IMG/VR virus record: IMGVR_UViG_3300044643_001857
Coordinates: 1 to 31,439 of that record
Source of the DNA: a virus
Length of the DNA stretch: 31,439 nt
Strand: one strand, 5' to 3'
Both the position numbers and the translations under genes were made by a program. Positions 3,025 to 15,357 of this stretch are shown here, piece after piece (within the stretch, counting starts at the first letter, position 1; each line of letters starts with the position of its first letter). Under the pieces are notes generated by a model. That model did not search any database. It was not told the DNA's origin and saw only the letters and a list, made by a program, of their open reading frames with translations.

Positions 3025-3989
3025 CCGCCACCAAGCCAGCCCGGCGGCGCAGTGGCCAGGCACCGGCCGCCCCTGCTGTCGAGCCCGTGGAGGCGATTGA
3101 CGGGGCCCCGCTGGCGGCTGCCGAGGGCCTGGAAACCACGGAAATCCCGGTGTTTGACGCCTATGGCCTGCCCCCGCGCACGGCGGAGTCTGATCGGCTG
3201 ATCGTCGACAACGAGGCCCTGGCGCGGTGCTACGCCCGGAGGATGGGCCTCAGCACCAAGTTTTCCGCGGAGGACCTGCACGGCGCCGCGATGTGGGGCC
3301 TGATCAAGGCTGCCCGCACCTTTGAGCCTGAGCGGGGCTTCACCTTCTCCACCCACGCCGTCCCGAAGATCGTGGGGACGATCAAGCAATGGGTCAGGGA
3401 TTACGGCTATGCCGTGAGGTTCCCCCACAGCTGGCGGGAGCACATGCCGAAGGTCCGGCGCCTGGCGCAGGCCGGCAAGACTGCGGCGGAGATCGTGGAG
3501 GCCATCGGCGTGCGGCCCGGCGGTGGATCGATCGTCAACGAGGCGGACGTGCGCGAAATGCTGCACGTGACTCGCACCTTCAAGCCCTGGGATGAGGTGC
3601 TGGGCCTCGACAGCGAGCCGCGGGTGCGCAACTCCCAGGTGCTGGAAGATCTGGAGTTCGAGGAAGCCGAGGAGCTCAACGGCCTCTACGACCTGGCGGC
3701 CCGGGCCTGGCGGCTGCTGGATCCCGGCGACCGAGAGACCATCGCGGCAGGGTGGGCGGCCAAGCGGCGGAACGTGCCAGGCCATCCCCTCGGGCAGTTC
3801 GCCGCGGCGGCCAAGCGGCTGGTGGGCGATCACAAGGTGCGTGGCGGCGAGACGGAGCTGGCCCCCTTGGGCTTCCCCCTTGAGTGCGGCCTGGGCGCCC
3901 CCAAGCCCTCCCGGCGGATGGTGGCCGCCGCTGGCGAGGAAGGAGAGGAGCTGCTGGAAGTGGTGGAGCAGCTGGGCCTAGGCCTCTGA
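3021..3989 (+). CDS. Phage-encoded sigma-70 family factor (region 2-like)
   Basis: The protein has 322 aa from the ATG at 3021, which forms an ATGA overlap with the terminase stop and is preferred over the in-frame ATG at 3015. After a Pro/Ala-rich N-terminal tail, residues about 60-130 match sigma-70 region 2. They include NEALARCYARR, EDLHGAAMWGLIKAA, FEPERGFTFSTHAVPKI, GTIKQWVRDYG and then VRFPHSWRE, as expected for regions 2.1-2.4. Residues about 141-165 (MPKVRRLAQAGKTAAEIVEAIGV) look like a short region-3/HTH-type segment. A classical region 4 is not obvious; residues 225-270 are a weak candidate. It is the last gene of the coupled early unit, immediately before the first copy of the GGAAARCTCAGGGCA motif, which suggests it may control the genes downstream. 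Confidence 0.8.
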   Translation: MTATKPARRRSGQAPAAPAVEPVEAIDGAPLAAAEGLETTEIPVFDAYGLPPRTAESDRLIVDNEALARCYARRMGLSTKFSAEDLHGAAMWGLIKAARTFEPERGFTFSTHAVPKIVGTIKQWVRDYGYAVRFPHSWREHMPKVRRLAQAGKTAAEIVEAIGVRPGGGSIVNEADVREMLHVTRTFKPWDEVLGLDSEPRVRNSQVLEDLEFEEAEELNGLYDLAARAWRLLDPGDRETIAAGWAAKRRNVPGHPLGQFAAAAKRLVGDHKVRGGETELAPLGFPLECGLGAPKPSRRMVAAAGEEGEELLEVVEQLGLGL

Positions 3990-4026: not shown

Positions 4027-5583
4027 GTGGGGCGGCTGGTGGCTCAGGCCGGGAAGATCAATCACCCAACCGACGACCCCAGCCTGCCGAGCTTCGTGCA
4101 TCCTGGGCTGAAAGAAGTCACGGGCGACCTTGAAATGGTCCGCGACTGCTGGGATCTGCTGCGCGAGGCAAAGGCCAAATACCTCCCCAAAGAGCCCAAG
4201 GAGCCGCAGAGGGCCTACCAGGGCCGGGTGATGCGCTCGAAGTACCCCGCCTTCTACCGCGATGGCGTGGTGGGCTTCGCCGGGGCCCTCAGCCGGTGGT
4301 CCCTGCGATCGGCGCCGGCCAGTTTTGAGGCCGCTCAGGACAACATCGACGGGGAGGGCACGAGCCTCAAGGCCTTCCTGCTGCTGGCTGATGCGCTCGT
4401 GCTGCGCGACCAGGGCTGCCTGCTGATGGTGGACATGCCGAAGAACCTCCCGGCCAGCCGCGGGGATGAGAAGGCGTTGCAGCGCCGGCCGCTGCTGACG
4501 ATGGCCGAGCGCTCGTCGGTGCTCAACTGGCGGACCACGAAGGTCGCCGGCCGCGAGGTGCCCACGGCCGTGACGGTGCGCGAGTTCCACGAGGTGGAGG
4601 TGGGGAACTTCGGCGTGGAGGTCGAGCCCCGATACCGCGTGATGAAGGGCGGCACCTGGCAGCTGATCAGGCTGGTTGCCGGCAAGGGCCGGGGCAAGAC
4701 CTCGTGGAGCCAGGAGGTGGTGGACCAAGGCGTCTTCACGGGCGCCGGCAACACGCCGCTGACGGCCCCGCCGGTGGTCTGGTACCCAGGCGCGGTCGGG
4801 GGCGGCTTCGGCCGCGGCCTGCTGATGCTGCAGAGCCTGGCGGAGCTGTCGCTGGCCTGGTATCGCAAGGATTCCGACCAGGAGGAGCTGCTGCACCGCT
4901 GCGCGTTGCCGGTGGGCGTCCGCAAGGGCGTGCCGGGCGCCATGGGTGCGGACGGGCAGGTGCGATCGGCGCCGCTGGAGATCGGGCCCAATTCCATCGT
5001 GGACATCCCCAACGCGGACGGCGACTTCCGATGGGAGGAGATCAGCGGCAGCAGCCTTGAGCTGCGTGAGAAGAGCCTGGAGCGCCTGGAGGCCCTGATG
5101 GACCGCCAGACGCTGGCCTTCCTGATGAGCGGCGCGGCGAACGATCGGACGGCCACGGAGGCGATCCTGGCCAGCGCTCAGCTCACCGCGTCCCTGGCGG
5201 GTGTGGCGGAGGCCAAGGCATCGGTGATTCAGTCCGTGATGGCGCTTTGGGCAGAGATGGCCGGTGAGCAGCTGCCGGGCGATGCGGGCCTGGCGATGGA
5301 GAAGGGACTGGTCGAGAAGCCGATCGACATTGAGACCCTGCGCGAAACCCGCGAGTGGTTCAACGCCATGCTCCTGAGGCGTGGAACGGCGGTGAGCGTG
5401 TTCGGCCGGGCTGGCCTGCTGCCTCAAGGCGTGACCGCCGAGGATGAGGCGGCGGGGCTGCAGGAGGAGGAGAGGGCGCGGGAGGAGAAGGAGGGCGAGA
5501 CCCCAGACGTGAACGACCCGGACGGGTGGGATGTGCCGGGGGCGGGGCCGAAGCCGGGGGCGGAAAGCTCAGGGCAACAGTAG
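4027..5583 (+). CDS. Portal protein, DUF4055-like
   Basis: Its 518 residues, position after the terminase and sequence character fit a DUF4055-type portal, the dodecameric ring through which DNA enters the head. Recognisable features are HPGLKEVTGDLEMVRDCWD near residues 25-45, LPKEPKEPQRAYQGRVMRSKYPAFYRD, and a central ALVLRDQGCLLMVDMP strand. Later come a long helix region SGSSLELREKSLERLEALMDRQ (stem/crown-like) and a Glu-rich C-terminus. The GTG at 4027 is the first start in frame, preceded by AGG five bases upstream; GTG 4039 is an alternative. The last codons (AESSGQQ) are encoded by a copy of the start-associated motif for the next gene. Confidence 0.8.
   Translation: MGRLVAQAGKINHPTDDPSLPSFVHPGLKEVTGDLEMVRDCWDLLREAKAKYLPKEPKEPQRAYQGRVMRSKYPAFYRDGVVGFAGALSRWSLRSAPASFEAAQDNIDGEGTSLKAFLLLADALVLRDQGCLLMVDMPKNLPASRGDEKALQRRPLLTMAERSSVLNWRTTKVAGREVPTAVTVREFHEVEVGNFGVEVEPRYRVMKGGTWQLIRLVAGKGRGKTSWSQEVVDQGVFTGAGNTPLTAPPVVWYPGAVGGGFGRGLLMLQSLAELSLAWYRKDSDQEELLHRCALPVGVRKGVPGAMGADGQVRSAPLEIGPNSIVDIPNADGDFRWEEISGSSLELREKSLERLEALMDRQTLAFLMSGAANDRTATEAILASAQLTASLAGVAEAKASVIQSVMALWAEMAGEQLPGDAGLAMEKGLVEKPIDIETLRETREWFNAMLLRRGTAVSVFGRAGLLPQGVTAEDEAAGLQEEERAREEKEGETPDVNDPDGWDVPGAGPKPGAESSGQQ
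5562..5578 (+). promoter_or_regulatory. Start-associated motif copy 2 (before zincin-family gene)
   Basis: GGAAAGCTCAGGGCAAC, 34 nt before the GTG at 5596. It sits inside the last codons of the portal gene, so the portal C-terminus ESSGQQ is dictated by the motif. Confidence 0.8.
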
Positions 5584-5595
5584 GGATCCTGAACC

Positions 5596-6600
5596 GTGGC
5601 AAAGGGTGGTCGGCGTCAGTACACGCGGGATGCTCGCGGGCGGTTCTCGGGTGGCGGCGGCGGCGGCGCCAGCCGGCCAGCGGCGCAGAAGGTCAAGCGC
5701 GGCACCAATCGGCTCACGCGGGACAATGCAGGGCGGATCACCAGCGCGGGCGGCGAGGGCGCAACGGCACGAGGGGGGCGGCTCAGGACCGCAGCGGGGA
5801 ACCTGAGGGCGACGCAGACGGCCAGGTTGAGGGGTGCGGGCGGGAAGGTGCGGCGGCCGATTGGTGGGGCGATGGCTGCTAAGGTTCCAAAGGTTGGCGC
5901 GGGTAAATCGGCAGTGATGGCGAAGCCGGTGCAGGTGCGGGGGAACTTCAGGCCACAAGGGGTAATGGCAAGGCCGGTAAAAGGAGAGAATCCGTTTGTC
6001 AGTGGATCAACCACAGCCAAGGATAGTGCCAGTCGCTTAGCAAACGTAAAAACGGCCAAAGCCTTTCTTGAGAAGCGAGGCTACGAAGTCGCCGTCTACA
6101 GTGGCGCCAGGCATGTCCCAGCCCGTTACAATGAAACAAAGGGAGTCATAGAAATCAACCGGGCCGCTACGCATTGGCAAAATCCAAAAGGCTCATCAGC
6201 GACAGAAAGAAAAAATCGCTTTTGGTCTTCATCCTCTCCGGTTGGGACGCTCTTCCATGAAATGGGCCACAGCAAAAGCAAAGGAGTTGGCGCAAGTTGG
6301 GTGACCGCTTCTCGTGGCGGTACTTACGAAGAAAGACTGCGGAAGGGGTCGAGATCTATGCAGCTTGCCAAGAGAGTCAGCAAATACGCCGCAACAAATC
6401 CAGCTGAGTTTATTGCCGAAGCATACGCCGGTCGCCGAACCGGCCGCCGCTACGACAGTCGCGTGATGAGCGCCTACCGCGAGGCCCGCGGCCTGCCAGG
6501 TATTCGCACAGGTTCCCGCGTCGCGCCTGGCGGCGCTGCATTGGTCAGTCCTAAAGCTGTAGCCAGAGATCGCGCCAGGCGCCGCCGCAAATCCAAGTAA
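5596..6600 (+). CDS. RDxxGRF-module family protein A with zincin-like metallopeptidase domain
   Basis: The first about 95 residues form a basic, Gly/Arg-rich module (YTRDARGRFSGGGG, then NRLTRDNAGRIT, then EGATARGGRLRTAAGN) shared with 7675-8352 and 9706-10683. The C-terminal half (about 130-300) is different. It contains TLFHEMGHSKSKG, a zinc-binding HExxH (His221-His225), followed by NPAEFIAEAYAG at about 268-279, where Glu271 or Glu275 could be the third ligand as in gluzincin-like peptidases. The protein ends in RARRRRKSK. The start is a GTG at 5596, 34 nt after the motif. DNA of the C-terminal domain (about 5990-6470) is clearly poorer in GC than the N-terminal module (48% in 6001-6060 against 73% in 5701-5760 by hand count), suggesting domain transfer. 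Substrate unknown; virion-associated cargo is an inference. Confidence 0.75.
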   Translation: MAKGGRRQYTRDARGRFSGGGGGGASRPAAQKVKRGTNRLTRDNAGRITSAGGEGATARGGRLRTAAGNLRATQTARLRGAGGKVRRPIGGAMAAKVPKVGAGKSAVMAKPVQVRGNFRPQGVMARPVKGENPFVSGSTTAKDSASRLANVKTAKAFLEKRGYEVAVYSGARHVPARYNETKGVIEINRAATHWQNPKGSSATERKNRFWSSSSPVGTLFHEMGHSKSKGVGASWVTASRGGTYEERLRKGSRSMQLAKRVSKYAATNPAEFIAEAYAGRRTGRRYDSRVMSAYREARGLPGIRTGSRVAPGGAALVSPKAVARDRARRRRKSK

Positions 6601-6603
6601 CCC

Positions 6604-7671
6604 ATGGCCACCATCGGCGACCAGCAGCTGACGCTTGCCGACGACTTCGCCGAAGCCCTTGACGGGATCGGCGATCGATCGACGGCCAACACGCGCAAGG
6701 CATTGCTGGCGGCCATGCGGGCCACGTTGCGGGACCTGCGCCGCTGGTACTCGGCCGCCGTGGATCCCACGCTCCCCGCCGAGCGCTCCGCCGATGGTGC
6801 TCTGCGCCGCCCTGCCAGCTACAGCATCGCCGAGAGCAGCAGGAAGCTGACGGAGCTGCAGCGCATCGCACAGGCCTACCTGAGCCCCGCACAGCTGCAG
6901 GCGCTGGCCAGGCGGTACGCGGTCGACCTGGAAGCTGCCACGGCCCTCGGGGGCGAGCTGGAGCGCCAGCTGATCGAGCTGACCGACCCAGGCACCGTGG
7001 CCGCCTCCCCGTTCGTGGGCCCCAACCGTGAGGCGATCAGGGCCGCGGCCGCAACCACCAGCGCCTACATCCGGGCGGAGGTGGAGAGCTTCCGCGACCG
7101 ACTCGGGCAGATCGTCACCAGCGGGGTGAGCCGCGGCCAGGGCTTCCGGGCGATCGAGAAGGACGTGCGGGTGGCCCTGCAGGGCGCCAAAGACCCCCAG
7201 GGGCTCACCCGCAGCATGGGCCTATTCCAGCGGGCCGAGCTGATCGCCAGGAGCGAGCTGAGCAACGCCTACGTGGGGGCGCAGAAGGCGGCGGCGGAGC
7301 GGAACGGGTACGCCTACGCGCGATGGATCGCCACGAAGGACGAGAGGACCTGTCCGGTGTGCGCCAGCAGGCACGGCAACGTCTACCGGCTGGGGGAGGT
7401 TGTGGCGCCTGGGCACCCTCGCTGCCGGTGTTCGCTTGCCCCCGTGAGCACCGAAGCCGTGGAGGAGAAGGACCCCAAAGCCCGCGCCCAGATGCTGCGC
7501 AGCGCCTACTGGGAGAAGTCACAGGAGGACGTGGCCAAGGCCTTTGCCAAGGGCAAGGGCTGGCCTTTTGAGAAGGCTTCTCAAGTGCTGGCAGACCACC
7601 TGCGCAAGCCCTCGCCATCGGAGCGGCGCCAGTTCCCGGACATCGAGACGGCGGCGCTGCCGGTGGGGTGA
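6604..7671 (+). CDS. Phage head morphogenesis protein, SPP1 gp7 / Mu F-like
   Basis: This 355-aa minor head protein probably sits at the portal vertex and acts in head assembly or DNA ejection, as SPP1 gp7 and Mu gpF do. The N-terminal half is helical (ADDFAEALDGIGDR, STANTRKALLAAMRATLRDL). The conserved gp7 core runs from RAELIARSELSNAYVGAQ through ARWIATKDERTCPVC to HPRCRCSLAP. The Cys pairs 250/253 and 274/276 plus His271 look like the usual metal or disulfide site of the family. The ATG at 6604 follows the previous stop by 3 nt without its own motif. It ends 3 nt from the stop of a convergent minus-strand gene. Confidence 0.9.
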   Translation: MATIGDQQLTLADDFAEALDGIGDRSTANTRKALLAAMRATLRDLRRWYSAAVDPTLPAERSADGALRRPASYSIAESSRKLTELQRIAQAYLSPAQLQALARRYAVDLEAATALGGELERQLIELTDPGTVAASPFVGPNREAIRAAAATTSAYIRAEVESFRDRLGQIVTSGVSRGQGFRAIEKDVRVALQGAKDPQGLTRSMGLFQRAELIARSELSNAYVGAQKAAAERNGYAYARWIATKDERTCPVCASRHGNVYRLGEVVAPGHPRCRCSLAPVSTEAVEEKDPKARAQMLRSAYWEKSQEDVAKAFAKGKGWPFEKASQVLADHLRKPSPSERRQFPDIETAALPVG

Positions 7672-7674
7672 GGG

Positions 7675-8352
7675 TTAGGGTTTGCGGCGGCGGGTGGGCG
7701 GTAGTGACTTGCCGGCCTTGCCGGCACCACCACCACGCAGAGCACCCTTGGCCGACGGCTTGGCCAGATCCGCCACGCCGCGCATCATCCGCGCATCGCT
7801 CTGCGCAAGCTGGCGCAAGCTGCCGCGAAGCGTTGCAGCCACGGACCCGCGACCTTGTGCCTGTACCGCCGCACCCTGTGCCGCTGGCGCCCTGCGAGGG
7901 ACGCGAATCTTCTCGCCAGTGATTGATTCAACCTCCCGAATCCAACGCGCGTCAGACTTTGCCAGGGACTGCAGGGTGTTTCGCAGCGTGCTGGTCATTG
8001 ACCCCGGCCGCTGCGCCGCCGGCACGCGACCTTGACCGGATGGCATGGCGGTGGCCCGCATGGCTTCCGCCTGTGCTCCGCCGCGAGGTGGGTTGCGCAC
8101 CTTCCCGCCCTGCCCCTTCAACCGGGCCGTCTGCGTTGCCCGAAGATTCCCCGCCCCAGTCCGCAGCCTGCCGCCCCTGGCCGTGGCCCCATCGCCCGTG
8201 CCCGTGATCCGGCCGGAGTTGTCGCGGGTGAGCCTGTTGCGCCCCCGCGGGGCTGGCTTGCTGGCAGGGCGCTGGCTGCCGGTGCTGCCGCCCCCGGCAA
8301 AGCGCCCGTTGCTGTCTCGCTTGTACGTGCGCCCCGCTCGCCCCTTCGCCAT
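7675..8352 (-). CDS. RDxxGRF-module family protein B, minus strand
   Basis: This 225-aa basic protein shares the N-terminal module with family A and C: TYKRDSNGRFAGGG, then NRLTRDNSGRITG, GATARGGRLRTGAGNLR, and QTARLKGQGGKVRN. The C-terminal part is different and consists of two imperfect copies of a 28-residue unit, TSTLRNTLQSLAKSDARWIRE and AATLRGSLRQLAQSDARMMRG, separated by a Pro/Ala/Gly linker. It ends in a Pro/Arg/Lys tail. The ATG at 8352 (reverse) is 30 nt after a motif copy on the same strand. It is convergent with the gp7-like gene and divergent from 8440. Role unknown; a DNA- or virion-binding accessory cassette is plausible. Confidence 0.75.
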   Translation of the reverse strand: MAKGRAGRTYKRDSNGRFAGGGSTGSQRPASKPAPRGRNRLTRDNSGRITGTGDGATARGGRLRTGAGNLRATQTARLKGQGGKVRNPPRGGAQAEAMRATAMPSGQGRVPAAQRPGSMTSTLRNTLQSLAKSDARWIREVESITGEKIRVPRRAPAAQGAAVQAQGRGSVAATLRGSLRQLAQSDARMMRGVADLAKPSAKGALRGGGAGKAGKSLPPTRRRKP

Positions 8353-8367
8353 GGCCCTTCTATCTGA

Positions 8368-8382
8368 TGCCTTGAGTTTTCC
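8368..8382 (-). promoter_or_regulatory. Start-associated motif copy on minus strand (before family B)
   Basis: On the minus strand this reads GGAAAACTCAAGGCA, 30 nt before the ATG at 8352. Its presence on the opposite strand in the correct orientation shows that the motif follows genes, not the DNA strand. Confidence 0.8.
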
Positions 8383-8439
8383 GTCTCGCCTTGCGCAATC
8401 TGAAGAAACGCCACAAACTGGCGCCAGCTGCTTGACAAC

Positions 8440-8703
8440 ATGGCCGCCGCCATCGCCATTTCGGACGCTCCCCCCAATGCCCTGTGCCCGAACCTGCAGC
8501 TGCTGCTGGCCCTGTTCGTGGGCGTGCTGACGCGATCGGAGGACGGCGTGCGGCAGGGCCTGAGGCTGGCGGCCACCACCCTGGGCGACGATGAGGCGCA
8601 GGAGCTGGCGGAGCTGCTGGTGCGCATGAGCGATCCGGTGAGCCGGTTCTGGCTGTCCCGGCTGGATGGGCCCCGGCGGAATCCAGGGAAGGCGTTCCGG
8701 TGA
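8440..8703 (+). CDS. Hypothetical protein, 87 aa
   Basis: The protein is helical and Leu/Ala-rich (LQLLLALFVGVLTRSEDGV, EAQELAELLVRMSDPVSRFW). Codon use is strongly G/C at the third position, as in genuine genes here, which supports it as real although no start-associated motif precedes it and its ATG at 8440 has no clear Shine-Dalgarno. It is divergent from family B with an 87-nt gap and is followed by a structured non-coding region. No family recognised. Confidence 0.6.
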   Translation: MAAAIAISDAPPNALCPNLQLLLALFVGVLTRSEDGVRQGLRLAATTLGDDEAQELAELLVRMSDPVSRFWLSRLDGPRRNPGKAFR

Positions 8704-8725
8704 TGGCCTGGCGGTGGTAGGGTTT

Positions 8726-8837
8726 GGGGGTCAAGCACTCGGCTTCCTCCGGGTGAGTCCCCGGTGGCTGCGCTCGTTTCTCAGGCCAGAGCAGCACCGG
8801 GCTTGGTTGTGGTTCAACCACTCAGCAGCCCAAGCCC
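8726..8837 (+). ncRNA. Structured RNA leader, possible attenuator
   Basis: This region has no coding frame with typical codon use. It can fold into a hairpin CACTCGG/CCGGGTG (8736-8742 with 8749-8755) flanked by GGGGG (8726-8730) and TCCCC (8758-8762). A second stem pairs GGGCTTGG (8799-8806) with CCAAGCCC (8830-8837) around a small GTGGT/ACCAC hairpin (8809-8821). The 3' arm of this second stem overlaps the 5' arm of the terminator at 8832, so the two are mutually exclusive, as in an antiterminator/terminator switch. No known riboswitch class is recognised. Seen: the pairings. Inferred: regulation. Confidence 0.4.
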
Positions 8838-8866
8838 CCACCGACTGCCATCGGTGGGGGCTTTCT
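8832..8866 (+). terminator. Strong hairpin terminator with short U-rich tail
   Basis: A perfect 13-bp stem AAGCCCCCACCGA (8832-8844) and TCGGTGGGGGCTT (8851-8863), with loop CTGCCA, is followed by TCTC-type bases rather than a long U run. It separates the 8440-8703 transcript from the motif-preceded gene at 8921. Confidence 0.75.
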
Positions 8867-8882
8867 CATGCCTGCCCTCCCC

Positions 8883-8899
8883 GGAAACCTCAAGGGAAG
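8883..8899 (+). promoter_or_regulatory. Start-associated motif copy (before 8921 gene)
   Basis: GGAAACCTCAAGGGAAG, 38 nt before the ATG at 8921 and just after the hairpin terminator, so it is placed where a new transcript would be expected to start. Confidence 0.7.
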
Positions 8900-8920
8900 C
8901 CGGCCGCACGCCCCCCTCCG

Positions 8921-9454
8921 ATGCCTCAGCCTCTGACGCCGCTGAACACGCTCTGGCGCAGCAAGCTGGCCACGCCACCGGCCACCGTGGATGATCGGGA
9001 GCTGATCAGGATGCACTGCGGCTGGGGCGGCCACTACGAGGCTCTGGAGATCCTCACGCAGCGGATGAACGAGGTGGCGGAGACCTACTCGCCAACCGTG
9101 ACCACGATCCAGGGCTGGCTCGATCGCATTGACGTGCTGGAGCAGGACCACGCCGACGCGGTGGAGGCCGGCACCGCCCACCTGGCCAACGCCGAGGAGT
9201 ACGAGGGGCCCATCCCCGGCACGGCGCCCACGCGGGAGCAGCAGCTGAACACGGCGGGCAAGCTGGCATGGGACACCAGCCTCCTGAAGGCCCGGTATCG
9301 CTTCGGGGGTGCTGCGGGGGCCGCCGGCAACGCTGACGGGCAGCGACGGGCGGAGATCAGCCAGCTGCGCCACCGGATCCTCGACGCCCTGGCCCTCGAT
9401 GAGCAGGCGGTGACCAATGGCGGGTTCGGGTACTCGGGGCTGGTGAGGAGCTGA
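8921..9454 (+). CDS. Hypothetical protein, 177 aa, possible neck/connector region gene
   Basis: The ATG at 8921 is chosen over upstream in-frame starts (frame open from 8666) because those would run through the terminator hairpin and the motif. The mostly helical protein has TLWRSKLATPPATVDDREL at the start and QRRAEISQLRHRILDALALDEQAV near the end. No family is recognised. Its place between head morphogenesis and tail completion genes would suit a head-tail connector or a small structural protein, but there is no direct sign of this. Confidence 0.65.
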   Translation: MPQPLTPLNTLWRSKLATPPATVDDRELIRMHCGWGGHYEALEILTQRMNEVAETYSPTVTTIQGWLDRIDVLEQDHADAVEAGTAHLANAEEYEGPIPGTAPTREQQLNTAGKLAWDTSLLKARYRFGGAAGAAGNADGQRRAEISQLRHRILDALALDEQAVTNGGFGYSGLVRS

Positions 9455-9456
9455 GG

Positions 9457-9471
9457 GGAAAACTCAAGGCA
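9457..9471 (+). promoter_or_regulatory. Start-associated motif copy (before DUF6496-like gene)
   Basis: GGAAAACTCAAGGCA, 30 nt before the ATG at 9487, in a 32-nt intergenic gap that holds nothing else. Confidence 0.8.
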
Positions 9472-9486
9472 CCCCGACCCGCCGCC

Positions 9487-9693
9487 ATGGCCGCCAAGAA
9501 GCCCACCGCCGCGCAGAAGAAGGTGGCCACCGTGATGCGTGAGTTCAAGGCCGGCAAGCTCCAGACGGGCAAGCCAGGCCCCGGCAAGGGCCCCAAGGTC
9601 AAGAGCCGGAAGCAGGCGGTCGCCATCGCCCTGTCCGAGGCGGCGCGGATGGGGAAGAAGGGGAGGGGGCGGAAAACTCAGAGCAGCACGTAG
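9487..9693 (+). CDS. Small basic DUF6496-like protein, 68 aa
   Basis: This Lys-rich protein matches the pattern I know as DUF6496: KKVATVMREFKAGKL, a short Gly/Pro/Lys linker, then VKSRKQAVAIALSEAARMGKKG. Members are small proteins of unknown function found in phages and bacteria. The C-terminal residues KTQSST are encoded by the motif copy for the next gene. The start is the ATG at 9487, and CCGCC precedes it rather than a Shine-Dalgarno sequence. Confidence 0.8.
   Translation: MAAKKPTAAQKKVATVMREFKAGKLQTGKPGPGKGPKVKSRKQAVAIALSEAARMGKKGRGRKTQSST
9671..9685 (+). promoter_or_regulatory. Start-associated motif copy (before family C)
   Basis: GGAAAACTCAGAGCA, 35 nt before the ATG at 9706 and overlapping the 3' end of the DUF6496-like gene. 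Confidence 0.78.
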
Positions 9694-9705
9694 CACCCCC
9701 CGTAG

Positions 9706-10683
9706 ATGGCCCGGACGTACAAGCGCGACGCAAACGGCAGATTCGCCGGAGGTGGCGGCAGCACCCGATCGGGCCGGCCGGCTGCCAAGCCCGTCAGCAG
9801 GGGCAAGAACCGCATCACCCGCGACAACGCAGGCAGGATCGCCAGCGTCGGCGGCGAAGGGGCCACGGCGCGAGGTGGGCGGCTCAGGACGGCGGCAGGG
9901 AACAAGCGGGCGGTGCAGACGGCGCGGATCAAGGGGGCGGGTGGGAAGCTGCGGAAGCCGATGGGGGGTGGGGGCGCAGCGCAGCCGGCCGCAAAAGCCG
10001 CAGCGCCATCGGCACAGCCCAGCCGGCAATCCGTTAAGTCAAAAAGCAGTAAGCGAACAGCGAAAAGCATTGATTCCGCCAAGGTTGAAAGAATACTAGG
10101 AAGGGTGCAGCAAAGCCCGGCTTACCAGGGAAGAACGAGAAGATTGCTCGCAGCTAAGCAGTCTGCCGGAGCGGACACGCGGCGACGCGCAGCTGATTTT
10201 CTAAGCAAGCAAGCAGGCCTTCAGCCCGACGGCACAAGCATGGGCCGCAAGCGCTGGAAGGCGCCTGAGGGAATGACGCAGCAACAAATGAAGCAGAACA
10301 TTGCGGATAGTCTTCCCAAGCAATCGCGCAAAAGCACAGCACGAACAGGCAATAAAAAACTTGTGACGAGAGCGCAAAAGCGTGATGAGAAGATTCAAGA
10401 GCGGCTAAATCCTGCACGCGTCTCGTATGTCTTCGGCCGCGAGGCTCCCAAGCCCAGCACACCGAAGCGACTATCTCAGGGTTACGACGGCGGCACTGCT
10501 CGCGGAAGCAAGGTCCTTGCCCGCGCTGCCTCTCGCCAGCGCGCGCGCCGTCGCGTGACCGAGGCCTTGGCTGGCACTGGACGACTGATGCGACCAGCTG
10601 CCAAGCTTCAGAGGGGAAGGGCTGGCCAGCGGAGCTTGCTTGGCGGACGCGCTACAACCTATGGGCGCCTTCGCCGTCGCTAA
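9706..10683 (+). CDS. RDxxGRF-module family protein C, 325 aa
   Basis: Residues 1-90 are the shared module: TYKRDANGRFAGGGG, NRITRDNAGRIAS, GEGATARGGRLRTAAGN and QTARIKGAGGKLRKP. From about residue 100 the protein is unrelated to A and B. It is highly basic, with VERILGRVQQSPAYQGRTRR, WKAPEGMTQQQMKQNIADSL and RARRRVTEALAGTGRL, and ends in GRLRRR. I recognise no catalytic motif. The DNA from about 10020 to 10480 is lower in GC than its flanks (50% in 10081-10140 by hand count) and uses codons such as aaa, aga and cta that are rare in the neighbours, as in family A, which suggests the C-terminal part was acquired separately. The ATG at 9706 follows the motif by 35 nt. Confidence 0.75.
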   Translation: MARTYKRDANGRFAGGGGSTRSGRPAAKPVSRGKNRITRDNAGRIASVGGEGATARGGRLRTAAGNKRAVQTARIKGAGGKLRKPMGGGGAAQPAAKAAAPSAQPSRQSVKSKSSKRTAKSIDSAKVERILGRVQQSPAYQGRTRRLLAAKQSAGADTRRRAADFLSKQAGLQPDGTSMGRKRWKAPEGMTQQQMKQNIADSLPKQSRKSTARTGNKKLVTRAQKRDEKIQERLNPARVSYVFGREAPKPSTPKRLSQGYDGGTARGSKVLARAASRQRARRRVTEALAGTGRLMRPAAKLQRGRAGQRSLLGGRATTYGRLRRR

Positions 10684-10686
10684 CCC

Positions 10687-11163
10687 ATGCCCACCCCCTT
10701 CGCCCCCTACGCCAGCCTCCGCCTCCTGTGGCGCGACCCCACCGCCAAGCCGGTGAACCTCCGGGATGGCCCCACGTCGGCCACCGTGCGGCTCGTGGTG
10801 ATCGAGGCCTTCATCGACGCCAGCCCCTCGGGCCCCAACGGCCAGGACGCGGGCGGTATTGAGATCGGTTCTCAACAACTGGAGGGCAACATCACCCGCT
10901 GGGCGCTGGTCCCCAACGGCGCCACCTGGCTCGACAGCGGCGCCTCCTGGGCCTGGACCGACACCGGCCTGCGACCCCCCGGCTTCGTGGCTGGCGTGCG
11001 CATGGAGGCCTGGGAGGGGCCCCTGGCGGAGCTGCCCACCACCACCAACGGCCGCCGAGGCTGGTTCACCATCGGCACTCTCTCCGGCACCGGCGGGATT
11101 GATGCCCTCGTGCGCGTGGAGGCGGGCGACGAGTTCACCGGGGTCTTCGCAGACGGCCGATGA
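10687..11163 (+). CDS. Hypothetical structural protein, 158 aa, head-tail region
   Basis: The start ATG is 3 nt after the family C stop; no motif precedes it. The protein looks all-beta (ATVRLVVIEAFIDAS, GNITRWALVPNGATW, RMEAWEGPL, GRRGWFTIGTLSG). It overlaps the next gene by ATGA at 11160-11163, coupling it to a tail completion candidate. A head-closure or connector role is possible by position only. Confidence 0.65.
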   Translation: MPTPFAPYASLRLLWRDPTAKPVNLRDGPTSATVRLVVIEAFIDASPSGPNGQDAGGIEIGSQQLEGNITRWALVPNGATWLDSGASWAWTDTGLRPPGFVAGVRMEAWEGPLAELPTTTNGRRGWFTIGTLSGTGGIDALVRVEAGDEFTGVFADGR

Positions 11164-11666
11164 GGGCCACGGTCCGCACGAGGGTTACGATCGACGCCAC
11201 CTTCTCCCGGCGCGTGCAGGCGGCGGCCAACCAGGCGGCGCGGCAAACCTTTGACGAGGCGTGGGCCCACATCCTCGACACCATGGGCAGCGAGGTCTGG
11301 CAATGGCCATCAGGGCGCATCACCTACCGGGGCGGCACCTACCGGCAGGACGGCAGCCGCACCAAGGGCCAGCCCGTCGGCAGCCCCCGCAACATCGTCG
11401 ATACCGGCCTGCTCCGGGCGTCCGGCTACATGATCGTCGACGGGGCCCTGGCCACCTTCAAGTTCCCCCTCGGGTACGCCACCGCCGTCCACTACGGGGC
11501 CGACATCTACCCATGGGGGGACAAGACCAAGCCGAAGGTGCACCTGCCCGCCCGGCCCTTCGTGACCGCCCCCCTGGGCCTTGATCCCTACCCCGGCGTC
11601 CCCGTGTTCCCGCTACGCCAGACCTTCCGGGAAAACTTTCAACGCGCATGGAAAACGATCAAGTGA
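11160..11666 (+). CDS. Tail completion protein, HK97 gp10-like candidate
   Basis: Its 168 residues show the layout of gp10/minor-tail-type completion proteins: an N-terminal helix (RVQAAANQAARQTFDEAW), then VDTGLLRASGYMIVDG, a strand ending YATAVHYGADI, and LPARPFVTAPLG near the C-terminus. The D-T-G-x-L-R-x-S and PARPF pattern is the basis of the call. The ATG overlaps the stop of the previous gene. Its 3' end runs 19 nt into the start of the chaperone gene. Confidence 0.65.
   Translation: MRATVRTRVTIDATFSRRVQAAANQAARQTFDEAWAHILDTMGSEVWQWPSGRITYRGGTYRQDGSRTKGQPVGSPRNIVDTGLLRASGYMIVDGALATFKFPLGYATAVHYGADIYPWGDKTKPKVHLPARPFVTAPLGLDPYPGVPVFPLRQTFRENFQRAWKTIK
11630..11644 (+). promoter_or_regulatory. 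Weak start-associated motif copy (before tail chaperone)
   Basis: GGAAAACTTTCAACG matches only the first eight or nine positions of the consensus and lies 18 nt before the ATG at 11648. It is inside the 3' end of the tail completion gene. Confidence 0.35.
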
Positions 11667-12418
11667 TGATGAAGAAAACGTTACCCTTTATCGTCAAGCC
11701 AGCGGAGCCCGCCGAGCCGTTCGCCACCGTCGGCGATGATCGCGTCGGCACCCTGCAGATCCCCCTCTACGGCTGGCTCACCGGCGATGAAGCCGCAATC
11801 ATCGGCGCCGTTGATCCTGAGAACCGCCAGTACACCGAATCCTGTTCCGCTGCGGTCGAGCTGGCCAAGGTCGCCGGCTTGTCCAGTGCTGACGCCTATC
11901 GGGCCCTCGCCAGGATCATCGCCAACCTCTCCGGCATGGGGAAGCCCCTCTCGCGGGAAGAGCAGGAGCTGAAGATCCAGCACTGGCGCATCTTCGCGCC
12001 GCTCATCCACCTCAGCCAGCAGCTGAACAACGAGCAGAACATCCGCCGCGTCACGGCCATGGCCCGCCGGCTCGATGGCTGCGGCGATTGGACCGACGCC
12101 GACAGCCGCGCCCTCCCCCCGCCGCTTCAGACCGCAATGGCGGACGTGGCCTGGCGGGAGGAGATCGCCATGACCCCCGAGGCTGACCCCCTCGTGCAGG
12201 CTGCCCTGCTGGAGGCTGACCTGGGAAAGCTGCTGCCGGAACCCTCACCGCGCCCAAGCCCGACTGGGGAGACCTCTACTGGCAGTTCCGAAACTTCTAC
12301 CCCACCGACCCCGACGGCAGCCGCGAGCGCTTCGGGAAGCTCCCGGCGCCCTACATCCTCGAAGCGATCGACAGGGGCCACCGCAGCCGCCGCGAAGCGC
12401 TCCACGCCGCTGAGCTGA
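11648..12418 (+). CDS. Tail assembly chaperone, lambda gpG-like, 256 aa
   Basis: This zero-frame product corresponds to the short chaperone that binds the tape measure during tail assembly. The N-terminal 190 residues are helical (GWLTGDEAAIIGAV, AAVELAKVAGLSSADAYRALARIIANL, SREEQELKIQHW). A slippery GGGAAAG heptamer lies at 12223-12229 in the correct phase for -1 slippage, as in lambda G/GT. After it the zero frame continues for 62 residues as a low-complexity Ser/Thr/Pro tail ending KRSTPLS, which has no look of a folded domain and is longer than the short extension of lambda G. The start at 11648 overlaps the previous gene; ATG 11666 is an alternative. Confidence 0.75.
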   Translation: MENDQVMMKKTLPFIVKPAEPAEPFATVGDDRVGTLQIPLYGWLTGDEAAIIGAVDPENRQYTESCSAAVELAKVAGLSSADAYRALARIIANLSGMGKPLSREEQELKIQHWRIFAPLIHLSQQLNNEQNIRRVTAMARRLDGCGDWTDADSRALPPPLQTAMADVAWREEIAMTPEADPLVQAALLEADLGKLLPEPSPRPSPTGETSTGSSETSTPPTPTAAASASGSSRRPTSSKRSTGATAAAAKRSTPLS

Positions 12419-12882
12419 GCACCGCCCAGCTTGCCCTGCTCCAGGCGGAGGCGAACCGCGACCGCAAGCAGCGTGCCAAGCCCTTTGAGCTGGCTGACTT
12501 CTGCTTCTTCGCCGATCGCACCGAAGCAGCCCTCCCCCCGGCCGCCGCTGGCGCCGCCCTGCTGGCCCTGCTCCAGCGCGACCTGATGCCCGGCTGGGCG
12601 ATCGGGCCGTGGTGCGAACCTCTCGAACAGGCAGGCGCCGGCCACGAGGCCCCCGCCCGCCTCTGCTGGGCCGCTGACGATGCCCTGATCCTGGCGCCGT
12701 GGCGTGCCGACGCTGACCACTGGGCGGGCTTCCTGATCGTCGACCGCAAGGCCGTGGGTCAGCCCCGCACCCTCTGGTCTGAGGATGGCGAATCGGTTGA
12801 CCTGCTGATCCCCGCCACCCTGGCCACCGCCGGCGCGTTCCTGTTCGCCCGCGAAGGCGTGACGCTCCCGATCATTCGCTGA
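11648..12882 (+). CDS. Tail assembly chaperone long form, gpGT-like, by programmed -1 frameshift
   Basis: Slippage on G-GGA-AAG at 12223-12229 joins the first 194 residues to a -1-frame extension of 217 residues, making 411 in all. This extension begins AAGTLTAPKPDWGDLYWQF and ends at the stop 12880-12882. The extension has clear coding character (G/C-rich third positions, Trp/Phe/Tyr-containing folded-type sequence, no start codon of its own near its beginning). It would correspond to the T domain that recruits tail tube subunits. In lambda the pair follows the tube gene; here it precedes the tube candidate. Frameshifting itself is inferred from phase and heptamer, not measured. Confidence 0.75.
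12223..12229 (+). other. GGGAAAG slippery heptamer for -1 frameshift
   Basis: The codon boundaries in the zero frame are G|GGA|AAG, the X-XXY-YYZ phase needed for tandem -1 slippage, and the heptamer is identical to the one used in lambda G/GT. The downstream sequence CTGCTGCCGGAACC could contribute a small structure, but I see no strong pseudoknot. Confidence 0.8.
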
Positions 12883-12888
12883 GCCCAC

Positions 12889-12903
12889 GGAAAGCTCAGG
12901 GCA
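12889..12903 (+). promoter_or_regulatory. Start-associated motif copy (before tail tube)
   Basis: GGAAAGCTCAGGGCA, a full match to the consensus, 33 nt before the ATG at 12922 in the 39-nt gap after the chaperone extension. Confidence 0.82.
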
Positions 12904-12921
12904 CCATCACCGCCTGAAATC

Positions 12922-13773
12922 ATGGCTGCCAACGCCTACGGGGCGACTGTCGACGTACTGACCTACATGGTCCCCATGCTGGCGTCGGCCGTCGATAGCG
13001 ACCAACTCGAAACCGCCCGCACCAACCTCGCCGGCTTCATCGACACCGCCACCGCCCTGCAGGGCCGCGGGATCTTCGACTGGAGCGGCAAGGGCACCAC
13101 CGCCTCGCCCTTTGTGGCGTTCGCCAACAGGGTCAACCTCACGATCACGACCGTGGCGCGGGCCACCAACGTGGTCACCATCACCACCTCCGCGACCCAT
13201 GGCCTCGTGGCCGGCGATCGGGTGCTGGTGACCGCCGTGACGAACACCACCGTCAATGGCGTCTTCACGGTGGCCAGTGCCCCCACCACGACCACCTTCA
13301 CCTACGCCAACACCGGCGCCACCATCGCCTCTGGCGCCGATACCGGCACCGTCAGCAAGGGCATCCTCAAGCTCGACGGCACCGACAAGGCCGTCAGGAT
13401 CATGGGCCTTACCGGCATCCCCCGGGCGACCGACACCCAGACCGATGAGAGCCTGACCCTCGACCCCGAGGACTCCGGCGCCACCATCCAGGTGGCCAGC
13501 TCGAACAGCTTCAGCTACGCCATCAGCGGCCTGGTCGACCGCAAGAGCTACGCCTGGAAGCTGTTCACCATGCTGTCCGAGTACGGGGTGATTCCCGGCC
13601 TGGCGGTCAAGTTCCTCCGGGTGGGCCCTGCCGGTTCCTCCGAAGCTCAGATCGGCTTCGGCCGCGTCAACATCTCCGAGGACGGCGACGCCGGCACCCT
13701 GCAGAAGTTCTCCGGCGCCATCACCATGATCGGTGCTGCGCGGACCATCCCCGACAACACCGGGATCGTATGA
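12922..13773 (+). CDS. Major tail (tube) protein candidate, 283 aa
   Basis: Its place after the G/GT chaperones, its length and its all-beta character suggest the tube subunit. Residues about 78-142 form an inserted Thr/Val-rich domain (NVVTITTSATHGLVAGDRV, VNGVFTVAS, TTTTFTYANTGAT) of a kind that recurs in phage tail proteins. A related copy occurs in 22331-23032. The flanking parts (SSNSFSYAISGLVDRKSYAW, FSGAITMIGAARTIPD) would form the tube core. The gene has its own full motif and is followed by a U-tailed terminator, as expected for a highly expressed protein. A tail fiber-like or other structural role cannot be excluded. Confidence 0.65.
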   Translation: MAANAYGATVDVLTYMVPMLASAVDSDQLETARTNLAGFIDTATALQGRGIFDWSGKGTTASPFVAFANRVNLTITTVARATNVVTITTSATHGLVAGDRVLVTAVTNTTVNGVFTVASAPTTTTFTYANTGATIASGADTGTVSKGILKLDGTDKAVRIMGLTGIPRATDTQTDESLTLDPEDSGATIQVASSNSFSYAISGLVDRKSYAWKLFTMLSEYGVIPGLAVKFLRVGPAGSSEAQIGFGRVNISEDGDAGTLQKFSGAITMIGAARTIPDNTGIV

Positions 13774-13802
13774 TCCACGGCGGGAAGGACTGAGCTGGAA
13801 CC

Positions 13803-14084
13803 TCAGCGCTCAACCACGGGATCACCAGGCGCCTCGGACGGGGCGCCTTTTTGTTGGGCGGCCAGCACCTCCCGGGCGGCGCCACAGGCCTCGGCCCATG
13901 GCCGCTGCAGGCCCTGCCGCATCGCCCAGCTTGTGGCGGCCCGCTGGCCCTGCCAAGCCCTGAGGAGCATCTTCGCCAGCTTCTGAAGCTCCAGCACGTC
14001 CGTGGTGCCCTCAATGGTGCGGCGCATCCGCTCCAGCTCAAACTCCTGTCCCACCGTCATCGCCATCGGTTGCAGCTGATCCAT
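13803..14084 (-). CDS. NblA-like small protein, minus-strand cassette, 93 aa
   Basis: The N-terminal 55 residues, with TVGQEFELERMRRTIEG followed by LQKLAKMLLRAWQGQRAATSW, resemble the cyanobacterial NblA (ycf18) pattern of a short helical protein beginning L-x-x-EQEFEL. NblA helps target phycobilisomes for degradation, and some cyanophages encode it. The match is by eye and partial; the protein is longer than typical NblA (about 60 aa), with a 35-residue tail. A different cyanobacterial conserved small protein is equally possible. The ATG at 14084 is 40 nt after a minus-strand motif copy, which supports the gene as real. Its 3' end overlaps the terminator of the tail tube gene. Confidence 0.5.
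   Translation of the reverse strand: MDQLQPMAMTVGQEFELERMRRTIEGTTDVLELQKLAKMLLRAWQGQRAATSWAMRQGLQRPWAEACGAAREVLAAQQKGAPSEAPGDPVVER
13827..13852 (+). terminator. Rho-independent terminator after tail tube gene
   Basis: The stem AGGCGCC (13827-13833) and GGCGCCT (13842-13848), with an eight-base loop, is followed by a run of T to 13852. It is 54 nt past the tail tube stop. On the other strand it falls within the last codons of the NblA-like gene. Confidence 0.8.
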
Positions 14085-14109
14085 GGCCAGGCTCCGGGGG
14101 TGCTGGTTT

Positions 14110-14124
14110 GCTGGGGAGGTTTCC
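14110..14124 (-). promoter_or_regulatory. Start-associated motif copy on minus strand (before NblA-like gene)
   Basis: The minus strand reads GGAAACCTCCCCAGC, matching GGAAAnCTC, 40 nt before the ATG at 14084. It is 12 nt from the plus-strand copy at 14137, forming a divergent pair. Confidence 0.6.
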
Positions 14125-14136
14125 GGGATCCCCTGC

Positions 14137-14153
14137 GGAAAGCTAGGGGAGCA
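14137..14153 (+). promoter_or_regulatory. Start-associated motif copy (before small basic gene)
   Basis: GGAAAGCTAGGGGAGCA, 37 nt before the ATG at 14174, one half of the divergent pair with 14110-14124. Confidence 0.6.
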
Positions 14154-14173
14154 TCCCCCTCAGAGGCGGCCCG

Positions 14174-14344
14174 ATGATGAACGGAATGGCGAAGACCAGC
14201 GGCGGCAAGGCCAAGAAGCCCACGGTCGCCAAGGTCAAGAAGGCCACGACCTACAAGGCCAAGAAGCCGGGCGCCGTCACGATGAAGGCCACGGCAGCCG
14301 CCAAACCCAAGCCCAAGGCCAAGCCCACGCGCATCCTGGGCTGA
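14174..14344 (+). CDS. Small Lys-rich basic protein, 56 aa
   Basis: The reading frame MMNGMAKTSGGKAKK continues as repeated Lys/Ala/Pro runs (VAKVKKATTYKAKK, AKPKPKAKPT) and ends RILG, like a histone H1 tail. Starts at 14174, 14177 or 14186 are all in frame; 14174 is 37 nt after a motif copy. It is 3 nt before the next gene's GTG. It probably binds nucleic acid or acidic surfaces because of its charge; nothing more can be said. It is not related in sequence to the RDxxGRF family but shares their basic character. Confidence 0.6.
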   Translation: MMNGMAKTSGGKAKKPTVAKVKKATTYKAKKPGAVTMKATAAAKPKPKAKPTRILG

Positions 14345-14347
14345 TCT

Positions 14348-14782
14348 GTGACGCTCCCCACCACCACGGAAGGCGTCTACGACCTGCTGGCGGCTGACAC
14401 CACCCTGGCGGGCCTGCTGGGCACGTACCTCTACCCCGATGGCACCACCCTGCCGGCCCTGTCGCGGCAGTTCATGAACCAGGCGCAGGACGAACCGACC
14501 GCCGTGGCGCGTGGGGTGGAGGTGGTGATCTGGCGGATCACCAGCGACGACCCGCAGGTGTGCGTCACCGGGGAGATCATCGTCAACCCCGTGGTGCGGA
14601 TGGTGGCGACCCAGTGGGACACGGACCCCACCGGCGGGGCCTACCACCTGCAGGCGGCGGTGCGGCGGATCCAGCTGCTGCTGCCCGGCTGCCGATCGGC
14701 CGATACGACCGTGCCGGATCTCACCACGGGCCTGGAGCAGCGGGCGCTCTCGTGGTCGGCGCCGCTGGTGATCGCGCCCTAA
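14348..14782 (+). CDS. Tail terminator-like protein candidate, 144 aa
   Basis: The GTG at 14348 starts three bases after the previous stop. The order helix (GVYDLLAADTTLAGLLGTY), strands (GVEVVIWRITS, VCVTGEIIVNPVVRMVATQW), helix (YHLQAAVRRIQLLLPG), final strand (QRALSWSAPLVIAP) resembles the small alpha/beta tail terminator fold of lambda gpU-like proteins. This is a fold-level impression. Its location between tube and tape measure is compatible with this. The end is followed by a strong hairpin. Confidence 0.45.
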   Translation: MTLPTTTEGVYDLLAADTTLAGLLGTYLYPDGTTLPALSRQFMNQAQDEPTAVARGVEVVIWRITSDDPQVCVTGEIIVNPVVRMVATQWDTDPTGGAYHLQAAVRRIQLLLPGCRSADTTVPDLTTGLEQRALSWSAPLVIAP

Positions 14783-14786
14783 TCGA

Positions 14787-14810
14787 GGCCCCAGGGATCG
14801 CCCCGGGGCC
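14787..14810. terminator. Hairpin between convergent genes, no U tract
   Basis: GGCCCC-A-GGG (14787-14796), loop ATCG, CCC-C-GGGGCC (14801-14810) forms a near-perfect 10-position stem with one A-C mismatch. It sits in the 35-nt gap between two convergent stop codons. It lacks a U run on either strand, so it may only stabilise or weakly terminate both transcripts. Confidence 0.5.
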
Positions 14811-14817
14811 CACGGGC

Positions 14818-15357
14818 TCAGCCCTTGCGCTTCCGGCCGCCGACCCCCCGCTTCTTCTCCATCGCCCGCACCTTGGCCTGAGCCGCCTGGACTGCCTTGA
14901 CGCTGGCGCGGATCCGCTGAGCACCGGCATCCTGCCGCTTGCCGAGGCCACGGGCAGAGGTGCGCCCACCGGCCATCATCTTGGCCTCCCTGGCCTTGCT
15001 GGTGGCGGCCTTGTACGCGGCCTTCGCCTTGTTCGGGGCGGCCTTGCCCGTCTTGGCCGGGGCCTTGGCGGCCATCTTGCTGGCGGCGACCTTCGTGCCC
15101 TTGCCCATGCCGCCGGTGGCGCCCATGCTGCGATCGAACATCCGCTTGGGCACGCTGCCAGCGGGTGCGGAGGTGCCGGGTCGCTTGCTGCCGAGCTTCG
15201 GGCCGCTGGCCTTCCCGCCCATCCGCGGGCCAGGCTTCGCCGCCGGGGCGGAGGCCTTGCTGGCAGCCTTGCCCTTGCCCTTCGAGCCGCCACCGCCTCC
15301 CCCACCACCGCCCCCGGCGAACCGCCCGTTCGCGTCACGCTTGTACGTCCGTGCCAT
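14818..15357 (-). CDS. RDxxGRF-module family protein D, histone-like, minus strand
   Basis: This 179-aa protein begins MARTYKRDANGRFAGGGG, identical to family C over its first 18 residues. It then has a run of ten Gly and a very basic Lys/Ala/Gly-rich body (SKGKGKAASKAS, KMAAKAPAKTGKAAPNKAK, RIRASVKAVQAAQAKV), ending GGRKRKG. The second half of the shared module (TRDNAGRIT, GRLRT) is missing, so it is a shorter variant. A role in condensing DNA or binding the acidic inside of the capsid is plausible from composition only. The reverse ATG at 15357 follows a full motif copy by 36 nt. Confidence 0.7.
   Translation of the reverse strand: MARTYKRDANGRFAGGGGGGGGGGSKGKGKAASKASAPAAKPGPRMGGKASGPKLGSKRPGTSAPAGSVPKRMFDRSMGATGGMGKGTKVAASKMAAKAPAKTGKAAPNKAKAAYKAATSKAREAKMMAGGRTSARGLGKRQDAGAQRIRASVKAVQAAQAKVRAMEKKRGVGGRKRKG

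Follow-up and report, generated by a model that had tools for sequence, protein, structure and literature searches.

An N-terminal tag shared by exchangeable proteins of the head-gene operon in an uncultured, probably cyanobacterial siphovirus suggests a virion-loading address

The way in which a phage selects proteins for its head is known in few cases. In T4, the internal proteins reach the scaffold core through a short sequence that they share, and IPI* goes on to be injected (PMC3012670). The MuF polymorphic toxins, whose genes lie in the tailed-phage packaging module, join a constant N-terminal part to variable C-terminal domains (Jamet et al. 2017, PMC5576092), and the polyvalent proteins, known from phages and conjugative elements and each one long multi-domain polypeptide, include zincin-like metallopeptidases near virion genes that are predicted to be packaged and injected (Iyer et al. 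2017, PMC5512222). Here we describe four genes in a 31,439-base IMG/VR virus record (IMGVR_UViG_3300044643_001857), analysed whole and called the window below, whose products begin with the same tag of about 18 residues, Y-x-RD-xx-GRF-[AS]-x-GGG, and continue into different C-terminal parts.

As with the T4 internal proteins (IPI, IPII, IPIII and Alt), a short N-terminal sequence is common to several basic, otherwise different proteins of one phage, whose bodies change fast; by analogy, those proteins would provide a working precedent for a capsid address, and the window system would be virion cargo marked by a common targeting sequence, of a kind already known from T4. The tag motif is different, however, and here the genes lie in slots of the head operon and the bodies include zincin and J-domains. 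The constant N-terminus and variable C-termini also recall the MuF toxins; the original prediction had likened the design to polymorphic toxins or capsid-packaged proteins. Membership of the MuF toxins is not supported, given that MuF is a separate gene (6604-7671), that the constant part is a tag of about 18 residues, and that no MuF domain was matched in the four window proteins or among the families of 134 relatives. Nor is there support for reading the basic C-termini as toxins. No immunity-gene pattern was seen, and the downstream neighbours are conserved head genes (small open reading frames, ORFs, were not examined systematically). With the polyvalent proteins the system shares a zincin-like domain near virion genes, but it consists of many short separate proteins with about one C-terminal domain each; indeed, the window proteins have at most one recognisable C-terminal domain apiece, unlike the multi-effector polyvalent chains.

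The tagged genes, here ZN, REP, BAS and HIS, are spread along a late operon with the order terL, sigma factor, portal, ZN, MuF, REP (inverted), g8822, DUF6496, BAS, g10687, g11160, g11648, putative major tail protein, g14348, HIS (inverted) and tape measure; scaffold and capsid genes lie beyond the tape measure, further along the operon. Their positions, with the junctions they occupy numbered as slots, are as follows.

5596..6600, plus strand: ZN, tagged protein of 334 residues with a zincin-like C-terminal domain, GTG start, slot 1 (portal/MuF)
5620..5646, plus strand: tag Y-x-RD-xx-GRF in ZN
5719..5739, plus strand: RDNAGRI, apparent degenerate second tag copy in ZN
5758..5790, plus strand: GATARGGRLRT, core of the type I second module in ZN
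7675..8352, minus strand: REP, tagged protein with a helical cassette, slot 2, inverted in the operon
8299..8325, minus strand: tag in REP
8206..8226, minus strand: RDNSGRI, second tag-like copy in REP
9706..10683, plus strand: BAS, tagged protein with a basic C-terminal domain, slot 3
9718..9744, plus strand: tag in BAS
9820..9840, plus strand: RDNAGRI, second tag-like copy in BAS
14818..15357, minus strand: HIS in slot 5, inverted and immediately upstream of the tape-measure gene; tag followed by a Gly/Lys/Ala-rich tail
15319..15345, minus strand: tag in HIS

All four ORFs of the original prediction are present at the coordinates and on the strands given there, each with its own motif. RD-xx-GRF occurs among all six frames of the window in exactly these four ORFs, and the tag DNA pattern gave 4 matches against 0.01 expected, a number that 0 of 100 shuffles reached. 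When we aligned the N-terminal 95 residues of ZN, REP and BAS locally and compared the scores with those of shuffled sequence, we obtained z = 28-30, and the first 25 residues of HIS gave z = 8-13 against each other member, while all C-terminal comparisons stayed at shuffle level (z -1.6 to 0.6). Thus the proposed divergence of the C-termini stood, but the proposed common module of about 95 residues did not extend to HIS, which shares only the tag, so that the element common to all four is shorter. ZN, REP and BAS do share a second module up to about residue 90, beyond which they are unrelated; over 92 residues ZN and REP are each 72-73% identical to BAS. Within it, TRDN-x-GRI seems to be a second, degenerate tag copy, because in 28 relatives the tag itself directly abuts GATARGG at that place. 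In a low-confidence model of REP, both copies form isolated bridges at equal positions. Pfam and PHROGs searches with the four proteins returned no significant family.

A profile search of viral contigs with the module identified 73 loci, and a hidden Markov model (HMM) run over the ORFs of module loci found 120 proteins in 75 loci, with up to four per locus. Searching with the tag DNA pattern alone yielded further loci, nearly all encoding very basic proteins. Pooled, the tagged proteins number at least 275, or at least 199 after removal of near-duplicates, and come from uncultured, probably cyanobacterial siphovirus contigs; the median net charge across 199 of them is +19.7 per 100 residues. 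The conservation of RD-GRF in this pool is partly by construction, since those letters served for selection. What follows the tag is of three kinds: the type I module with GATARGGRLRT, a type II module with ...ARSSLKRSRAKL...QKGAVTR, or neither. Because the second module of tagged relatives differs or is missing, the tag is the common unit, and the idea of the N-terminus as a common address survives for these universal 18 or so residues and not for the 95-residue module to which it had been attached. A search for the module in cellular assemblies gave no match.

The tagged genes recur at set places. In relatives with this operon they use the junctions portal/MuF, MuF/g8822, g8822/g10687, g11160/g11648 and a place just before g14348/tape measure, and in the mapped records they lie among head and connector genes, beside portal, MuF, g8822 or g10687 or directly ahead of the tape measure. 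In a more distant group, whose portal is 25-28% identical, they adjoin the portal gene, and in one 75.9 kb record (loci L005 and L204) a MuF-tag-g8822 cluster lies about 30 kb from the portal on the opposite strand, with no MuF behind the portal. Across 24 whole records the tag pattern gave 76 matches, against 0 for a reversed-letter control. When loci were chosen by MuF alone and spanned portal to g10687, 29 of 31, some of them near-duplicate records, carried one to four tagged genes.

Closely related genomes differ at these places. Over most of their backbone, L010 and L014 share about 94-95% identity; L014 nevertheless cleanly lacks the slot-1 and slot-2 tagged genes of L010, and in slot 3 the two genes match at about 94% identity through the N-terminal module (to about residue 81) and are then unrelated as far as the stop codon. 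L012 differs from L010 by an in-frame segment of 148 residues, directly after KPKGLKP. These differences are direct evidence of cargo-like turnover. L009 retains the slot-5 member only, the other tagged genes being absent; this slot is that of HIS, which has divergent homologues in L009 and L014. Stricter clustering resolved 80 non-redundant type I C-termini into 24 clusters (single linkage was useless, because basic linkers chain everything), so the module does recur with other C-termini and is tied to variable domains, contrary to what a mere low-complexity linker would show. The proposed modular design of a common N-terminus with exchangeable C-termini is therefore borne out by gain and loss, C-terminal swap, the MuF-chosen survey and this clustering. 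A linker, G-T-[IMV]-[AG]-K-P-[KR]-G-x-K-P, recurs at domain boundaries of many tagged proteins (for example L010:6730-6760 and L014:14432) and coincides with two observed swap points.

Some of the C-terminal parts are recognisable, and those of the window are located as follows.

6025..6486, plus strand: zincin-like domain of ZN, with a helix, three strands, an HExxH helix and a Glu helix (AlphaFold2 topology and alignment)
6256..6270, plus strand: zinc-binding motif HEMGH at residues 221-225, in which both H and the E are invariant across 16 sequences
6418..6420, plus strand: Glu275, predicted third zinc ligand, invariant
7735..8022, minus strand: mobile helical cassette of REP, two repeats S-x-x-TLRxxLxxLAxSDARxxR, with 19 HMM matches in the loci

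The HExxH motif and the downstream Glu (H117, E118, H121 and E171) are unchanged throughout the 16 zincin sequences, and the AlphaFold2 core of the ZN domain (pLDDT, predicted local distance difference test, 80-92) has the topology described for polyvalent-protein zincin-like peptidases (PMC5512222). The model of REP predicts three helices and helices only, with an N-terminal module that is of low confidence and mostly unstructured. The helical repeat of REP and the basic domain of BAS are present as first described but are not private to these proteins, as both have families of their own in other phages: the REP cassette stands behind type I, type II or no second module, and homologues of the BAS domain occur in L018, L021 and L024. 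J-domains (DnaJ matches, HPD present) form the C-termini in L005 and others. An untagged open frame of 84 residues with half a REP cassette, possibly a remnant, lies in L209 (10486-10683, minus strand).

Gain, loss and swap at fixed places among the head genes suggest that the tag is a short virion-loading address on exchangeable cargo proteins. We favour, with a probability of roughly 60%, an account in which the cargo is captured in the head, leaves with the DNA and acts in the host through its C-terminal domains. The tag would be captured during procapsid assembly by a conserved head component, most plausibly the portal, MuF or a scaffold, and any protein bearing it would be loaded and, on infection, would exit together with the DNA. 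With about +20 net charges per 100 residues, the basic body would keep the cargo attached to the packaged DNA, and the zincin protease, the helical cassette and, elsewhere, the J-domain would act in the host. Within one lineage, about 200 different proteins bear this short motif, and near-identical genomes supply natural experiments in gain, loss and swap; if the motif is an address, it would offer a testable packaging signal and a way to discover injected effectors and counter-defence proteins systematically.

The core of the tag also occurs in unrelated phages. Among the matches listed for HPRD-xx-GRF, obtained with a search pattern biased to CGN arginine codons and high G+C, the motif was in frame in 109 of 120 stretches against 32 of 95 for a codon-permuted control, and in ORFs of at least 300 residues in 88 of 120 against 9 of 95; only these in-frame fractions are comparable, because the control scan covered everything while the HPRD counts are of listed matches. 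Upstream of the listed motifs we found Phage_Mu_F (5 of 32), Phage_portal (4) and one prohead protease, and downstream ADPrib_exo_Tox (5 of 77), Zeta_toxin (4), ART-PolyVal and PBECR2, with nuclease domains also among those behind RD-xx-GRF. Among named phages, HPRD-type queries turned up a single useful isolate, Streptomyces phage Gilgamesh. Its gp48 carries LHPRDSKGRF at residues 35-44 and is encoded just behind a portal-MuF fusion gene. Tentatively, and with clearly less confidence than we place in the address of the tagged lineage, R-D-x-x-G-R-F could be a widespread address of tailed phages, N-terminal on stand-alone cargo, at the carrier/effector junction on fused cargo, and read by a conserved head component. 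If so, virion-delivered effectors could be found by sequence alone. In the viral contigs L214-L333, HPRD-xx-GRF was seen in very large proteins, at the boundary from MuF or portal to toxin-like parts or near the N-terminus. Neighbouring RelA/SpoT and S-adenosylmethionine lyase genes of L281 (5041-9431) both carry HPRD-xx-G[RK]F, and at least five different proteins of one contig (L274:7983-14472 and L266) have ...LHPRD-xx-GRF... with differing remainders. Searched as literal strings only, the motif was not mentioned in the open-access papers searched.

Several points weigh against the capsid-address account. The presence of tagged proteins in virions is something we infer. The Y-tag and the HPRD motif could be convergent, as a core of seven letters may have arisen more than once. 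Tblastn searches of 50,697 named phages with ZN, the module, HIS, a type II protein and a short-module protein gave no credible match for any of these queries, although the low-complexity filter may hide some. Cyanophages with homologous portals (P-SS2, for which virion proteomics exists, S-CBS2 and S-CRES3) are, unlike the window virus, without the tag in the stretches read. Foldseek returned no significant fold match for the zincin domain (best E 0.25), though several of its weak matches are zincins, such as abylysin, selecase and ArdC. Finally, no domain can be recognised in most of the C-termini, which may be structural.

This last point belongs to the strongest alternative, that the tagged proteins are structural, histone-like internal proteins which neutralise or organise DNA, with a tag that brings them into the head and C-termini that vary by drift in a permissive protein; in the host they would do nothing. 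The high net charge of the 199 proteins, the Gly/Lys/Ala-rich composition of HIS, the mostly unstructured N-terminal module and the scarcity of known domains all agree with it. We nevertheless regard it as unlikely, since enzymatic signatures are kept, in the HExxH...E of 16 proteins and in J-domains with HPD, and since whole genes are missing from near-identical phages, and all but the slot-5 member from L009, which argues against an essential structural role.

Alternatively, the products could be intracellular late proteins, binding the nucleoid or RNA or acting in antidefence, whose tag engages a cytoplasmic partner, of the host or of the phage, while nothing is packaged. Independently expressed accessory genes are often inverted relative to the operon, as two of the four are here, and strongly basic proteins would suit such a role. 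This is improbable, however, given the confinement of tagged genes to head and connector slots in the mapped records and the same core motif at MuF/portal-to-effector junctions of other phages; a scan for sigma-70-like promoters of the inverted genes was empty, but says little at this G+C.

Still less probable is that the shared N-terminus acts as a recombination handle through DNA similarity and encodes a peptide without function of its own, even though the breakpoints between L010 and L014 and between L010 and L012 fall at the module end and at the recurring KPKGLKP linker. Module copies show synonymous divergence (dS) of 0.7-3.2 and nonsynonymous divergence (dN) of 0.11-0.24, so the peptide was maintained while the DNA diverged, and the module is under protein-level purifying selection. 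This counts against both a low-complexity linker and a mere DNA handle; indeed, synonymous sites of the paralogues are diverged or saturated, L010A and L010C using the same codon at 21 of 68 shared residues, and proteins without the remainder of the module still keep the tag. The divergence at synonymous sites also led us to reject recent gene conversion between the paralogues.

The least probable alternative is that the tag, instead of being an address, serves a protease of the phage itself, such as the neighbouring zincin, as a site of recognition or maturation cleavage: polyvalent-protein zincins have been proposed to process virion cargo (PMC5512222) and T4 IPI* is a proteolysed form (PMC3012670), but L009, L010 and L014 have tagged proteins and no zincin in the stretch covered, and cleavage at a motif so near the N-terminus would release little.

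The host is probably a picocyanobacterium, because the portal is 36-39% identical to those of the cyanosiphoviruses S-CRES1-3, S-CBS2 and P-SS2 and because the closest MuF relatives in cellular assemblies lie in contigs labelled Cyanobacteria bacterium and Cyanobium; such MuF-bearing contigs may be free phage. Those cyanosiphoviruses resemble the window virus also in a capsid protein of about 35% identity and in having terL followed by a sigma factor gene. The remaining annotated features of the window are as follows.

3015-3989, plus strand: phage-encoded sigma factor (PF04542)
4027..5583, plus strand: portal protein, left edge of slot 1 (phrog_145, E 2e-73)
6604..7671, plus strand: MuF head protein, a separate gene not fused to tagged proteins (PF04233, E 6.9e-15; phrog_16619)
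9487-9693, plus strand: DUF6496 protein (E 9e-15)
13803-14084, minus strand: small inverted ORF, untagged, next to slot 5 (45-80% identity in relatives)

The sigma factor gene overlaps the end of the terminase gene, and in P-SS2-like cyanophages it also stands behind terL. In relatives, the DUF6496 gene often adjoins tagged genes.

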